From an uncultured Aliiroseovarius sp. (GTDB lineage Bacteria; Pseudomonadota; Alphaproteobacteria; Rhodobacterales; Rhodobacteraceae), in assembly GCF_947497285.1 (NCBI RefSeq), contig NZ_CANMFT010000002.1, positions 310,001 to 374,000 on the forward strand: 64,000 nucleotides of DNA. Direction: 5' to 3'. Below, in pieces: positions 29,460 through 50,085 of this stretch (its first letter is position 1; each line of letters starts with the position of its first letter). Position numbers and translations under genes: made by a program. The notes under the pieces are model-generated. The model worked only from the letters and a program-made list of their open reading frames with translations. It did not search any database and had not been told where the DNA came from.

Positions 29460-32105
29460 ATGGCCAGCCTCAACGATATCCGCTCAACTTTTCTGGACTA
29501 TTTCGAACGCAATGGGCACGCGGTGGTGGACAGTTCCCCACTCGTACCACGCAATGATCCGACACTGATGTTCGTGAATTCCGGCATGGTGCAGTTCAAG
29601 AACCTGTTCACCGGCATTGAAACGCGCGACTACACGCGGGCGACCACCGCTCAGAAATGCGTCCGCGCGGGCGGTAAACACAATGACCTGGACAATGTCG
29701 GCTATACCGCGCGCCATCACACATTTTTCGAGATGCTCGGAAATTTCAGTTTTGGGGACTATTTCAAAGACGACGCGATTGCCTTCGCGTGGAACCTTGT
29801 CACGAAAGAGTTTGGCGTCGATCCCGAACGTCTGCTGACCACAGTTTATCACACCGATGATGAAGCGTTTGAAATCTGGAAGAAGGTCGGTGTGCCGGAA
29901 AGCCGGATCATTCGGATCGATACGGCGGACAATTTCTGGCAGATGGGCCCGACCGGCCCCTGTGGTCCGTGCACCGAGATTTTCTATGACCACGGTGATC
30001 ACATCTGGGGTGGCCCTCCGGGATCTGCTGAGGAAGACGGCGACCGTTTCATCGAGATCTGGAACATCGTTTTCATGCAGAACGAGCAGTTCGAAGACGG
30101 TTCGATGAAAGCGTTGGACATGCAGTCGATCGATACCGGTATGGGGCTGGAGCGCATCGGCGCGCTGTTGCAAGGCAGCCATGACAACTATGATACCGAC
30201 CTGTTCAAAGCGCTGATCGAAGCCTCGGCACATGCGACCAATGTCGACCCCTATGGCGACCAAAACGTGCATCACCGGGTGATTGCGGATCATTTGCGCT
30301 CGACCTCGTTCCTGATGGCGGATGGGGTGATGCCGTCGAACGAAGGGCGGGGCTATGTGCTGCGTCGGATCATGCGCCGTGCAATGCGCCACGCCCATCT
30401 TCTGGGGGCGCAAGACCCTGTCATGCATCGTCTTGTGCCCGAACTGGTGGCGCAGATGGGGCAGGCTTACCCCGAGTTGGGGCGTGCCCAGTCAATGATT
30501 GAAGAGACATTGCTAAACGAAGAAACCCGGTTCAAGAAGACGCTCGATCGCGGCTTGAAACTGTTGGACGACGAAGTGTCGAGCCTTCCCGAAGGGGCGG
30601 ACCTGCCGGGTGAGACAGCGTTCAAACTATATGACACCTACGGTTTCCCGCTGGACCTGACGCAGGACGCGTTGCGCGAAAAAGGGCTTGGCGTGGACCA
30701 GCCCGGATTTGACTCGGCGATGGAAGAACAAAAGTCGCGGGCCCGTGCCGCGTGGTCGGGATCGGGTGAGGCGGCGGATGCCACCATCTGGTTTGATCTG
30801 GCTGAACAGCACGGCGTGACGGAGTTCTTGGGCTATGACGCCGAACATGCCGAAGGTCAGGTGCTGGCAATTGTCTCAGACGGTGCGGTCGTGGACAGTG
30901 CCAAGTCGGGCGACGAGGTTCAAATCGTGGTCAACCAGACGCCGTTTTATGCCGAGGCGGGCGGTCAAGTGGGCGATACCGGCCTGATCCGTACCGACAC
31001 CGGGTCGGCCCATATCACCGATACGAAGAAGGTGGCGGATGTGTTCATTCACTTCGCCAAGGTTGATGAGGGCGAGATTGCCAAAGGGCAGGGCGCCGAA
31101 TTGGCGGTGGATCACCTGCGCCGCACGGCAATCCGCGCCAACCATTCGGCCACGCACTTGCTGCACGAAGCGTTGCGCAATGAATTGGGCGATCACGTCG
31201 CGCAGCGCGGGTCGTTGAACGCGCCCGACAGGCTGCGGTTTGATTTTAGCCATAACAACGCGGTGTCGGCGCAGGAATTGGGCAATATTTCGCGTGAGGT
31301 GAACACCTATATCCGCCAGAACACGCCGGTTGAAACCCGGATCATGACGCCGGATGATGCGCGCGAGATCGGGGCGCAGGCGCTGTTTGGCGAGAAATAC
31401 GGCGACGAGGTCCGCGTGGTGTCGATGGGACATTCACCGACCGGTAAAGGCACCGACGGCCAGACCTATTCGATCGAGCTGTGCGGCGGCACCCATGTGA
31501 AGCAGACCGGCGACATTGGCGTTTGCGTGATCCTGTCTGAAGGGGCCAGCGCGGCGGGCATTCGCCGGATCGAGGCGCTGACGGGCAAGGCTGCCGTCGC
31601 CTATATCGAAGATGAAGCCGCGCGTGCCTCGGAATTGCAAGGCATGCTGAAAGCCAAACCGGACGAGGTTGTTGACCGCGTCAAGGCCATGCTGGACGAA
31701 CGCAAGGCGCTGAACAACGAGATTTCGGCGTTGAAACGCGAACTGGCAAAGGCCGCGGGAGCCGGGGCGGAAGCCAAGGACATCAATGGCGTGAAGTTCC
31801 TTGCAATGACCATATCGGGTGTTGCGGGCAAAGACCTGCAAACGCTGGTGAATGAGCAGAAGGATGCGCTTGGCTCTGGCGCGGTTCTGATCATCTCGGA
31901 GAATGACGGAAAAGTCGCTGTTGCTGCTGGTGTGACGAGCGATATGACCGACCGTGTGTCGGCTCTTGACCTGGTTAAGGCCGCTGTCCCCGAACTCGGT
32001 GGTAAGGGTGGCGGAGGTCGCCCAGAACTGGCGCAGGGCGGAGGTCAGGACATTACCAAAGCTGACGTCGCCGTGGCCGCGGCCGAGGCCGTCATCGTGG
32101 GTTGA
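29460..32105 (+). CDS. alaS: Alanine--tRNA ligase
   Basis: 881 residues from ATG 29460; the in-frame ATG at 29430 would add a ten-residue extension not usual in AlaRS, whose start is M[14 protein letters not shown]. Class II catalytic core: [18 protein letters not shown], then [15 protein letters not shown]. The editing domain has [13 protein letters not shown] and the zinc/editing [11 protein letters not shown]. The C-terminal coiled coil and C-Ala domain follow, ending with a glycine-rich [16 protein letters not shown]. Length fits the family. It charges tRNA-Ala in the cytoplasm and clears mischarged Ser and Gly. A terminator follows within 25 bases. Confidence 0.98.
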
Positions 32106-47323: not shown

Positions 47324-47998
47324 CTACTGCGCGGGCTTTGGACCCGCGGGCACGATCAGCGCGTCAAAGGCACCGGTAAACCCGGACAACGACATCGTCA
47401 GGTTCACTTTCTGATCCGGCGCAGCGGCGGGCACGATCGAAACCGTCGCCTTGGCCCCTTTCTTGAAGCCTGCAATCTCGTCTGCGGTGAAGCCGATATT
47501 GGCAACACAGCCGGGCTGCGAACAAAAGCGGAAGGGATAGCGTTTGCCCTGACCACCATCAACAGCGATGGTCAACTGCTGCGTCAGCAGGGTTTCAAGA
47601 GGCACCACGACGGTGGCACCTGCCACGGCCTGCGACCCGGCGGGCAGTTTGCCCAGCGAAATCTCGGCCACCGGGTTGCCGGTTTCATCTTTCAGCAACT
47701 GATACATCTGGCACGGATCATCGCCTTGGCCCTCTGGCAAGGTGATACATTTGCGTTCCCAGTCCCCGACCACATCTTCGACATAGGTCTGGCCGGGCTG
47801 GCGTGTGCCATCGACCGCTTCACCCATATCGACTGCGGGTTGCTGGGGCGCGTCTGCCTGTGCCGGCTGGTCGGCGGCGGGCGCCTCGGCGACAGGTGCG
47901 TCAGCGTTCGTATCTGCGGTTGTGTCTTGTGCAAGGGCAGGGGTGCCCAATGCCAGAAGAACTGCCAGCGGCAGTGTTTTCATCAGCTCAGCCTTCAT
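47324..47998 (-). CDS. Invasion-associated locus B (IalB)-like periplasmic protein
   Basis: 224 residues from ATG 47998 (AAGGA upstream). A signal peptide (MKAELMKTLPLAVLLALGTP, cleavage after ALA) is followed by an acidic Ala/Pro/Asp-rich stretch (25-65), then the IalB domain: VGDWERKCITLPEGQGDDPC, MYQLLKDETGNPVAEISLG, a conserved VVPLETLLTQQLTIAVD and RFCSQPGCVANIGF. Two cysteine pairs should form disulfides in the periplasm. Despite the name from Bartonella, the family is common in free-living alphaproteobacteria and its function is unclear. Its upstream region (47999-48546) contains the small RNA candidates. Confidence 0.86.
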   Translation of the reverse strand: MKAELMKTLPLAVLLALGTPALAQDTTADTNADAPVAEAPAADQPAQADAPQQPAVDMGEAVDGTRQPGQTYVEDVVGDWERKCITLPEGQGDDPCQMYQLLKDETGNPVAEISLGKLPAGSQAVAGATVVVPLETLLTQQLTIAVDGGQGKRYPFRFCSQPGCVANIGFTADEIAGFKKGAKATVSIVPAAAPDQKVNLTMSLSGFTGAFDALIVPAGPKPAQ

Positions 47999-48196: not shown

Positions 48197-48264
48197 TGAG
48201 AAAAGGGCCCGACCAGCGGACCCTTTTCAATATTCTCTCCCTGCCGGACTGACCGGCTTATTGG
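48197..48264 (-). ncRNA. Candidate small RNA 2 (about 68 nt)
   Basis: On the minus strand a 12-bp hairpin with one G-U pair (48200-48228, loop CTGGT) ends in CCCTTTTCTCATTT, an intrinsic terminator. The G-U pair would be a C-A mismatch if read on the plus strand, which favours the minus strand. No minus-strand ORF precedes it. TTGACC (48293-48298) and ATAGCG (48271-48276), 16 bases apart, could start a transcript near 48264. A small stem GCCGG/CCGGC precedes a purine-rich AGGGAGAG. Product and targets unknown. Confidence 0.42.
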
Positions 48265-48389
48265 GTGTGACGCTATGTCACTTGCCAAAACCGGTCAAGA
48301 GCCTTTTTCGCGCAAATTTGGATGGACCGGCCGAGAACGGCACATTCAGCGGTCAAGATCGCCTTTAAGGTGCAAATACTTGTCAGTGT

Positions 48390-48480
48390 TAAGAAAAAAG
48401 ACCCCGCCCGAAGGCGAGGTCAGTCTGACAGGGAGGAAGTCATTCCCAAAACGTCAGGTATTCGGGAATGATTCCACTCT
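48390..48480 (-). ncRNA. Candidate small RNA 1 (about 90 nt) with an exposed UUCCUCC motif
   Basis: Read on the minus strand from about 48480 the sequence forms a first hairpin, TCATTCCC paired with GGGAATGA (8 bp), then a single-stranded CTTCCTCCCTGTCAG, then a terminator: a 9-bp stem with TTCG loop (48400-48421) followed by TTTTTTCTT. The middle motif could pair with Shine-Dalgarno sequences. An RpoH-like promoter lies just upstream (48487-48512). No ORF on this strand. The arrangement is that of Hfq-type trans-acting small RNAs and recalls the stress-induced CCUCCUCCC RNAs of Rhodobacter, but homology is not shown. Confidence 0.6.
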
Positions 48481-48486
48481 GGTGCA

Positions 48487-48512
48487 AAATGGTTAATTAA
48501 GTATTGTTTCAA
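48487..48512 (-). promoter_or_regulatory. RpoH-like promoter of small RNA 1
   Basis: Minus strand: TTGAAAC (48506-48512), 13 bases, then CCATTT (48487-48492). The TTGAAA...CCAT form is that of heat-shock sigma (RpoH) promoters, in Rhodobacter RpoHI/RpoHII. Confidence 0.5.
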
Positions 48513-48546
48513 CCAAGAGATTTTTCAGGCCCTGGGAGGCAATCAG

Positions 48547-50085
48547 ATGGACGGTGCGATTTTCATTGGTGGTGGTGGCGAAGACTATGGCGTGAAGCAG
48601 GGGCTGTTGATGAAATATGCCAACCGCCACGGGCTGGTCGCCGGCGCAACCGGCACCGGCAAGACCGTGACCCTGCAGATCATGGCCGAAAGCTTCGCAT
48701 CTGCGGGCGTGCCTGTGTTCCTGTCGGATGTCAAAGGCGATCTGTCTGGCCTTGCAAAAGCCGGGACGGAAGGGTTCAAACTGCACAAAGCCTTCACCGA
48801 TCGGGCCACCAAAATCGGGTTCACGGATTACGCTTATGGCGCGTTTCCCGTCACCTTCTGGGATCTCTACGGCGATCAGGGCCACCCGGTCCGCACCACG
48901 GTGTCCGAAATGGGGCCGCTATTGCTGGCCAGATTGCTGGAGCTGACTGATGCGCAGGAAGGTGTGCTGAACATCGCCTTCCGCGTTGCTGACGAACAAG
49001 GCTTGCCGCTGTTGGATCTGAAGGATCTTCAGGCGCTTCTGGTCTGGGTCGGGGAAAACGCCAAAGAGATGTCGCTGCGCTATGGCAACGTGTCCACCTC
49101 GTCCGTCGGGGCCATCCAGCGCGCGCTGTTGGTGTTGGAAAACCAAGGCGGGGAAAAGCTGTTTGGCGAACCGGCGTTGGAGCTGTCCGACATCATGCGC
49201 ACCGATCGTGACGGGCGGGGGCGTATCTCGATCCTGGCGGCCGACAAGCTTATGGGTGCGCCGCGCCTATATGCGACCTTCCTTTTGTGGTTGCTGTCTG
49301 AGCTGTTTGAAGAATTGCCCGAGGTCGGTGACCCGGACAAACCCAAGCTTGTGTTCTTCTTTGACGAGGCGCATCTGTTGTTCGATGACGCCCCCAAGGC
49401 ACTGGTCGATAAGGTCGAACAGGTCGCCCGCCTGATCCGATCCAAAGGGGTTGGCGTCTATTTCATCACCCAAAACCCTGCTGATGTGCCCGAGGACATC
49501 CTTGGTCAGCTTGGCAATCGCATCCAGCATGCCCTGCGGGCGTTCACCGCCAAGGACAGAAAAGAGCTCAGGCAGGCCGCCGAAACCTATCGCGACAATC
49601 CGCGGTTTTCGACCGAGGATGCGATCCGCGAAGTCGGTGTGGGCGAGGCCGTTACCTCGTTTCTGGAACGCAAGGGCGCGCCGGGTGTGGTCGAACGGAC
49701 GCTGATCCGCCCGCCCAGCTCTCAGCTTGGGCCGATTGATGTGGCGGAACGCAAGGCGTTGATTGATGCCTCACCCATCGCAGGAAAATACGAGACGCTG
49801 AAAGACCGTGAAAGCGCCTATGAGGTGTTGACCAAACGCGCGGCTGATGCAGCGCGCGAAGCGGAAGAGGCTGAGCGCAAGGAAGAAGAAGCCAAAAGTG
49901 TAGCCGAACGCGAATACCGCGCCGGACGCCGCTATTCCGGCACCAAAGTGGGGCGTTCGTCGTCGCGCAAATCATCCGGCGGGTTTGGCGGCGCGGTCGC
50001 AGATGTGGTCATGAAAGAGCTGAAGGGCACCACCGGAAAGCGCATCGTGCGCGGCATCCTGGGATCGCTGTTCAAGGGTCGCTAG
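48547..50085 (+). CDS. HerA/DUF853-type ATPase (YjgR-like)
   Basis: 512 residues. P-loop [21 protein letters not shown] (residues about 28-48), Walker [16 protein letters not shown], and the arginine/sensor region [19 protein letters not shown] are those of the HerA/FtsK-like superfamily, DUF853 (YjgR) group. The C-terminal tail from about 415 is charged and coiled ([19 protein letters not shown]), then Gly/Ser-rich. Hexameric HerA enzymes move along DNA with the NurA nuclease, but no NurA gene is here and the role of the DUF853 branch is not established. It is divergent from small RNA 1, with about 65 bases of shared promoter space. A 20-base palindrome (50074-50093) covers its stop codon. 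Confidence 0.88.

Follow-up and report, generated by a model that had tools for sequence, protein, structure and literature searches.

A candidate anti-Shine-Dalgarno small RNA gene and its putative partner RNA in the herA-ialB gap of Rhodobacterales

Roseobacters and their relatives are common marine bacteria but, to our knowledge, little is known about their riboregulation. In the 64,000-nt stretch of DNA from an uncultured Aliiroseovarius sp. that we analyzed (hereafter the window), a first-pass annotation, made from the letters alone, had flagged part of the gap between a herA-like and an ialB-like gene as a possible small RNA gene behind an RpoH-like promoter. This raises the question of whether the gap encodes a regulatory RNA and, if so, to which class it belongs, what kind of promoter precedes it, and with which RNAs it might pair. 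Compared across related genomes, this part of the gap has the appearance of a real, conserved small regulatory RNA gene (here called sRNA1), and it is followed by a second conserved element (RNA2) that may be its partner.

Anatomy, conservation and class of sRNA1

The features of the locus, apart from RNA2, are as follows.
48547..50085, plus strand: herA-like ATPase gene (Pfam HerA_C), divergent from sRNA1
48487..48512, minus strand: RpoH-like pair of the first-pass annotation, TTGAAAC (48512-48506), 13 bases, then CCATTT (48492-48487); not conserved
48476..48505, minus strand: conserved upstream region (from alignment counts) with AATAC (48505-48501), TTAACC (48496-48491) and a -10-like CAGAGT (48481-48476)
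48472-48394, minus strand: sRNA1 gene, from its estimated start (placed by the -10-like box) to the T run
48440..48471, minus strand: sRNA1 hairpin 1, an 8-bp stem TCATTCCC/GGGAATGA (48471-48464 with 48447-48440) and a 16-nt loop, to which the predicted fold adds three inner pairs
48422..48439, minus strand: sRNA1 core CTTCCTCCCTGTCAGACT, the anti-Shine-Dalgarno motif, near-invariant in alignments and including the C-rich stretch CTTCCTCCCTGTCAG (48439-48425)
48394..48421, minus strand: sRNA1 intrinsic terminator and T run (from stem and covariation), a 9-bp stem with a TTCG loop (48421-48400), then TTTTTTCTT
47327..47998, minus strand: ialB-like gene (Pfam IalB, by Pfam match), downstream of sRNA1 and RNA2

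The hairpin, the C-rich motif and the TTCG-loop terminator all lie on the minus strand where the first-pass annotation had placed them. The stretch also lacks an open reading frame on that strand, as had been claimed: no minus-strand ORF of at least 40 aa overlaps 48390-48480, and the plus strand has two mechanical ORFs that run across it. When folded from 48481, the predicted RNA has an energy of -40.4 kcal/mol (z = -5.2), matched in stability by 1 of 200 shuffles. The further claim that the C-rich motif is single-stranded depends on where transcription starts, since on re-folding the stretch is fully open with a start at 48472 but partly paired with a start at 48481, 48474 or 48469.

A 141-base DNA query matched 19 of 20 genomes of the same genus, 9 of 16 from elsewhere in the family (one of the nine matches, in G023, being SorX) and 0 of 24 from other families, or 29 of 61 with the own genome included. 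A second match in the own genome (C5:175721) was set aside, as it covers the terminator part only. An alignment of 28 loci (without L027 and L030) displays a conserved upstream region, a sequence-variable hairpin, the nearly invariant CTTCCTCCCTGTCAGACT and a terminator. Anchoring the comparison on herA, which was matched in 50 of 61 genomes, frees it of bias from core selection: among the 30 best-scoring loci, one per genus and with the window's own included, the core was present in the divergent gap in 26 (at most two mismatches in TCCTCCCTGTC), four of which carry TGTTGGAC in place of TGTCAGAC, and ialB lay downstream in 28.

The core pattern itself occurs in at least 118 stretches from named genomes, and we used the 80 listed ones. 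Their titles are presumably all those of Rhodobacterales, except for one labelled only Alphaproteobacteria. Because these loci were chosen by exact core match, the core is conserved in them by construction; the herA-like gene adjoins sRNA1 divergently in 70 of the 80, and ialB was found in 74. Of 133 loci pooled from several searches, 125 have ialB no more than 1.5 kb downstream. A model of the core matches 259 of 295 genomes of the family, with SorX- and SorY-type paralogs counted in, and 44 of 190 across the class, mostly more weakly.

The hairpin appears to be maintained in form rather than in sequence. From 139 loci given, 129 passed our filter and 117 were unique, and in all 117 the 46 nt before the core fold at -8 kcal/mol or below (mean z -2.66; 79 of 117 below -2), by stems that take many different sequences. 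The terminator stem is paired in 100% of cells and shows both-side changes in 3 of its 8 pairs, a number reached by 7 of 500 shuffles. The first-pass annotation had made its reading depend on conservation of the hairpin-motif-terminator order in related genomes, and this order is conserved: our alignments show the predicted gene, with its hairpin, core and terminator, at one locus in most genera sampled. In 55 of the 117 orthologs (e.g. L281, L299 and L300) the hairpin region contains another C-rich motif, GUCCUC in type, which is absent from the 20 same-genus sequences, the window included.

The description of the locus as an uncharacterised sRNA gene that lies upstream of ialB, carries a C-rich anti-Shine-Dalgarno motif and ends in an intrinsic terminator agrees with our Rfam searches, in which no covariance model scored sRNA1 above its cut-off. 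The best score, for SorX (RF02784), was 31.6 bits (E 1.9e-5) against a gathering score of 46.6, followed by SorY (RF02651) at 23.9 bits against 111, a threshold passed by only 1 of 295 genera, and suhB/mmgR (RF00519) at 23.3 bits against 41. Elsewhere in the genome, a SorX ortholog scores 59.6 bits and immediately follows the 3' end of a response-regulator gene, the arrangement reported for R. sphaeroides, and a separate SorY ortholog scores 47.9 bits, itself under its cut-off (111). Because the genome carries its own SorX and SorY orthologs, sRNA1 can be neither of these and is a third, separate member of the group. Judged by its sequence, it adds an unnamed member to the alphaproteobacterial UUCCUCCCU (anti-Shine-Dalgarno) class of sRNAs.

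Within this class, sRNA1 shares the anatomy of SorX but not its location, the 3' UTR belonging to an ompR-type gene. Like sRNA1, SorY is free-standing and consists of a hairpin, a ACCUCCCUGUUGGACUU core and a terminator. The alpha-r8 sRNAs (MmgR, and SisA-D of Caulobacter), described as a hairpin, the 10-mer UUUCCUCCCU and a terminator (PMC12559287), likewise resemble sRNA1 in having a hairpin, the 10-mer and a Rho-independent terminator. Their 10-mer is single-stranded and follows a weak hairpin; its counterpart in the window reads CUUCCUCCCU (9 of 10 letters) and, with the 5' end that is assumed, changes from open to partly paired. In most species, however, alpha-r8 genes are linked to an N-formyl glutamate amidohydrolase gene, whereas the neighbours of sRNA1 are HerA_C and IalB genes, and the sRNA1 core is extended by GUCAGACU. 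Additional class-like elements surfaced during these searches. The same genome holds a possible further TTCCTCCCTGACTG element with a terminator-like stem (L092 1493-1544, G000:C3 near 321837; 12.2 bits, E 0.11), a genome of another family has three core-model matches in about 0.6 kb (G480:C1:3175664-3176242), possibly a tandem array, and L060 (G021:C9:60608-60866) and L325 each contain two tandem CTCCCTGTTGGAC sRNA-like units, whose cores are separated by about 180 and 120 bases, respectively.

RNA2 and the ialB leader

Alignment of the herA-ialB gap within the genus exposed a second conserved block, between sRNA1 and ialB, which the first-pass annotation had left unmentioned.
48270..48298, minus strand: RNA2 promoter, TTGACC-N17-TAGCGT (from sequence and alignment)
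48262-48200, minus strand: RNA2 (ends estimated), with hairpin GCCGG-TCAGT-CCGGC (48257-48243), AGGGAG (48242-48237) and terminator (48228-48200)
48237..48250, minus strand: RNA2 segment AGTCCGGCAGGGAG, complementary to the sRNA1 core by 12 Watson-Crick pairs and 1 G-U of 14

RNA2 is present in 117 of 120 unique loci (all but L188, L207 and L297), and a model of its 5' part matches 252 of 295 genomes of the family (one per genus), mostly once each. Its 5-bp hairpin reads GTCGG/CCGAC in most loci and GCCGG/CCGGC in this genus, followed by (A/G)GGGAG. Pairing in this hairpin holds for 98.1% of cells, and both-side changes are seen in 2 of 5 pairs (reached by 64 of 500 shuffles) and in 5 cells (0 of 500). 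TTGAC occurs within 60 nt upstream in 117 of 117 loci and TA[GA][CG] in 107 of 117. An Rfam search over the stretch at a lax threshold returned only three matches (E 3.2 to 4.7). RNA2-like sequences near the sRNAs of eight loci in genomes of other families (L311-L318) were discarded, all 7 matches being, by position, the antisense of the sRNAs' own cores. The predicted order herA-like gene, sRNA1, RNA2, ialB is kept in most genera sampled, and we regard RNA2, as delimited by alignment, as a newly recognised and highly conserved short unit of RNA within the leader of ialB.

As a 14-mer complement to the sRNA1 core, RNA2 ranks second in the window, behind the gene's own antisense, and it is a best or joint-best window match for the SorX and SorY cores. 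Pairing was counted in 116 of 117 loci, R. sphaeroides being omitted because its core could not be aligned without a gap. Against the RNA2 of the same locus, the sRNA1 core pairs at 14 positions in 5 loci, 13 in 98, 12 in 11 and fewer in 2 (at least 13 of 14 in 103 of 116), and the SorY core would pair at 14 positions in 105 loci and at 13 in 11. When the 60-420 nt downstream are searched for the best complement, a locus's own core scores higher than a shuffled one in 113 of 116 loci, and shuffled cores bind RNA2 equally well in 4 of 2000 trials. Changes within the site are mostly A/G opposite U, such that wobble pairing is kept.

Other measures set limits on how this complementarity should be read. 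RNA2s permuted among loci score as high in 410 of 2000 trials, and there is thus no sign of co-variation between the sRNA1 core and RNA2. Half of the pairing site sits in RNA2's own hairpin, and the energy of the whole-molecule duplex is unexceptional (energies as low are reached by 65 of 3000 75-mers drawn at random from the window and by 22 of 1000 shuffled RNA2s). By energy, an unrelated site at 32020 (plus strand) binds the sRNA1 core better than RNA2 does, and part of the match between RNA2 and the core is plain anti-Shine-Dalgarno against the Shine-Dalgarno-like GGGAG.

A precedent for such an arrangement comes from Caulobacter, in the sponge CrfA and its targets SisA-D (PMC12559287). 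Like CrfA, RNA2 is purine-rich and complementary to a core common to an anti-Shine-Dalgarno sRNA family, and it shows the CrfA-type extended complementarity to the cores of several sibling sRNAs. Unlike CrfA, this putative sponge is encoded beside one presumed partner, in the ialB leader. The predicted pairing of RNA2 with sRNA1 thus resembles the CrfA/SisA-D sponge by analogy, and RNA2 may be a sponge or a target within the ialB leader.

RNA from this locus has probably already been seen by northern blot in R. sphaeroides. We infer that genome G095 is R. sphaeroides 2.4.1 because its SorY match starts at 1,632,645, near the published SorY 5' end at 1,632,642 (PMC6238624). Its orthologs of sRNA1 (C4:1426676-1426734, with a core that differs from the window's, CTCCCTGAACTGGACT) and RNA2 (C4:1426570-1426603) share a gap between a catalase gene, next to a LysR-type gene, and ialB; no herA-like gene was found by search in this genome. 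Since katE is RSP_2779 (PMC3413700), RSs2778, since renamed UdsE (PMC8625941), should sit in the katE-ialB gap, and on the strength of its name and this assignment the orthologous gap probably holds RSs2778/UdsE, as either sRNA1 or RNA2; the northern-blot attribution follows from this placement. In the literature accessible under those names, we recognised no functional study of RSs2778 or UdsE.

UdsE is described as 5'-UTR-derived, affected by RNase E and PNPase, with a predicted 5' end at a start site, and as co-transcribed with its mRNA (PMC8625941). These descriptions favor an alternative in which sRNA1 and RNA2 are both segments of the ialB leader, with partial termination in a long 5' UTR releasing short RNAs (as for UpsM) and pairing in cis within the read-through RNA tuning ialB. 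The same alternative accommodates five loci that lack an adjacent herA and still have ialB downstream (L147, L167, L185, L209 and L211). However, sRNA1 has a strong terminator of its own and RNA2 a promoter of its own, so that two separate units are the simpler account, and UdsE may correspond to RNA2 alone. We therefore consider an origin of both RNAs as leader fragments unlikely and continue to treat them as separate units.

The upstream region of sRNA1

The promoter proposed by the first-pass annotation would make sRNA1 an RpoH-driven, stress-induced RNA. The pair is indeed present in the window, where TTGAAAC-N12..14-CCATTT is expected by chance only 0.03 times, and SorX, SorY and CcsR of R. 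sphaeroides are reported to depend on RpoHI/RpoHII (PMC8307010, PMC5036791). Among 121 unique upstream loci (including L297, which lacks a recognisable sRNA1), however, the TTG of the proposed -35 box occurs in 2 and CCATTT in 7, and both occur in 1, the window itself; within the genus, the TTG is found in 1 of 20. As a positive control, a single regular expression for the RpoH-like CTTG..CCYA matched 21 of 24 SorY loci (40-nt stretches) versus 0 of 121 sRNA1 upstreams (50-nt stretches). The SorY ortholog of this genome has an RpoH-like promoter and sRNA1 does not. Although the pair is rare by chance, only 1 of 121 loci keeps it, so its reading as a promoter is probably coincidental, and the pair may be a species-specific gain. 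Stress induction through RpoH loses its support together with the non-conserved promoter, and an RpoH-driven sRNA1 now seems very improbable.

What is conserved upstream of sRNA1 is of a different kind. ATAC and TTAAC each occur in 95 of 121 loci, TTAA occurs in 109 of 121, and a -10-like CANNNT is found in 92 of 117. The predicted sRNA1 promoter is accordingly not RpoH-like, its conserved parts being TTAAC and CANNNT; TTAACC may resemble a CtrA half-site. The exact AATACNNNNTTAACC is present twice in the genome, upstream of sRNA1 and inside an apparent coding sequence, and a genome-wide AATAC-N4-TTAACC regulon was rejected (11 sites with at most one mismatch versus 33 for the reversed control).

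Two of the conserved upstream motifs were compared with the presence of herA. ATAC is present in 95 of 111 herA-adjacent loci versus 0 of 7 others, and TTAAC also drops, from 91 of 111 to 3 of 7, in a comparison that omits 3 loci with too little upstream sequence and counts the doubtful L297 among the seven. As ATAC tracks herA, it could be part of the divergent herA promoter, although TTAAC falls as well; the tracking suggests that the sRNA1 and herA promoters overlap divergently. The same tracking would suit a stretch that is only a terminator or a divergent herA/ialB promoter region without a functional RNA, but this can hardly be so, given a core conserved far beyond the needs of a terminator, a hairpin whose form is kept despite changing sequence, and an sRNA1 core and terminator that persist at loci without herA.

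Proposed mechanism and candidate targets

We consider it likely that the locus as a whole is best explained by a free-standing, trans-acting anti-Shine-Dalgarno sRNA1 with its own upstream region and terminator, and perhaps with RNA2 titrating it. The core UUCCUCCCUGUCAGACU, lying between two hairpins, would pair with ribosome-binding sites of the GGGAGG type, and this pairing would repress translation of several mRNAs, with sRNA1 probably loaded on Hfq through its U tail. By analogy with SisA, SorX and SorY, sRNA1 most likely represses mRNAs via its core; the Hfq binding and translation block already put forward by the first-pass annotation are suggested by the U tail, in the case of Hfq, and by likeness to the same three RNAs. 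Less surely, RNA2 would start from its own promoter, within the leader of ialB, end early at its terminator and pair with the cores of sRNA1, SorX and SorY, thereby titrating the sRNA class. A two-RNA module in the herA-ialB gap of Rhodobacterales, with RNA2 as a common sponge of sRNA1, SorX and SorY that is coupled to ialB transcription, is a possibility that we advance tentatively.

The sRNA1 core is not specific as a target seed. GGGAGG-N4..10-ATG occurs 118 times in the genome, compared to 13 times for the reversed pattern, and specificity must therefore be supplied by the GUCAGACU extension, by the loop or by Hfq. A target search with CTGACAGGGAGGAA (at most two mismatches) yielded 17 sites versus 3 for the control, among them the antisense of sRNA1 and of the SorX ortholog. 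The best-looking candidate target, named by eye, is the apparent start of a TRAP-type binding-protein gene with ATGACTGGGAGGAACCTCATG (L094, G000:C4:420149). The herA-like gene also starts behind GGGAGG (GGGAGGCAATCAGATG, 48534-48549, plus strand) and is a possible target of the sRNA class.

An sRNA encoded at one locus across most of the genera sampled is an obvious candidate regulator. If RNA2 is a sponge, the CrfA/SisA principle would extend to another order, with the sponge encoded beside one of the sRNAs, and SorX and SorY would come under an added negative control. Should the two-RNA module prove true, it would set the strength with which these stress sRNAs silence their targets.
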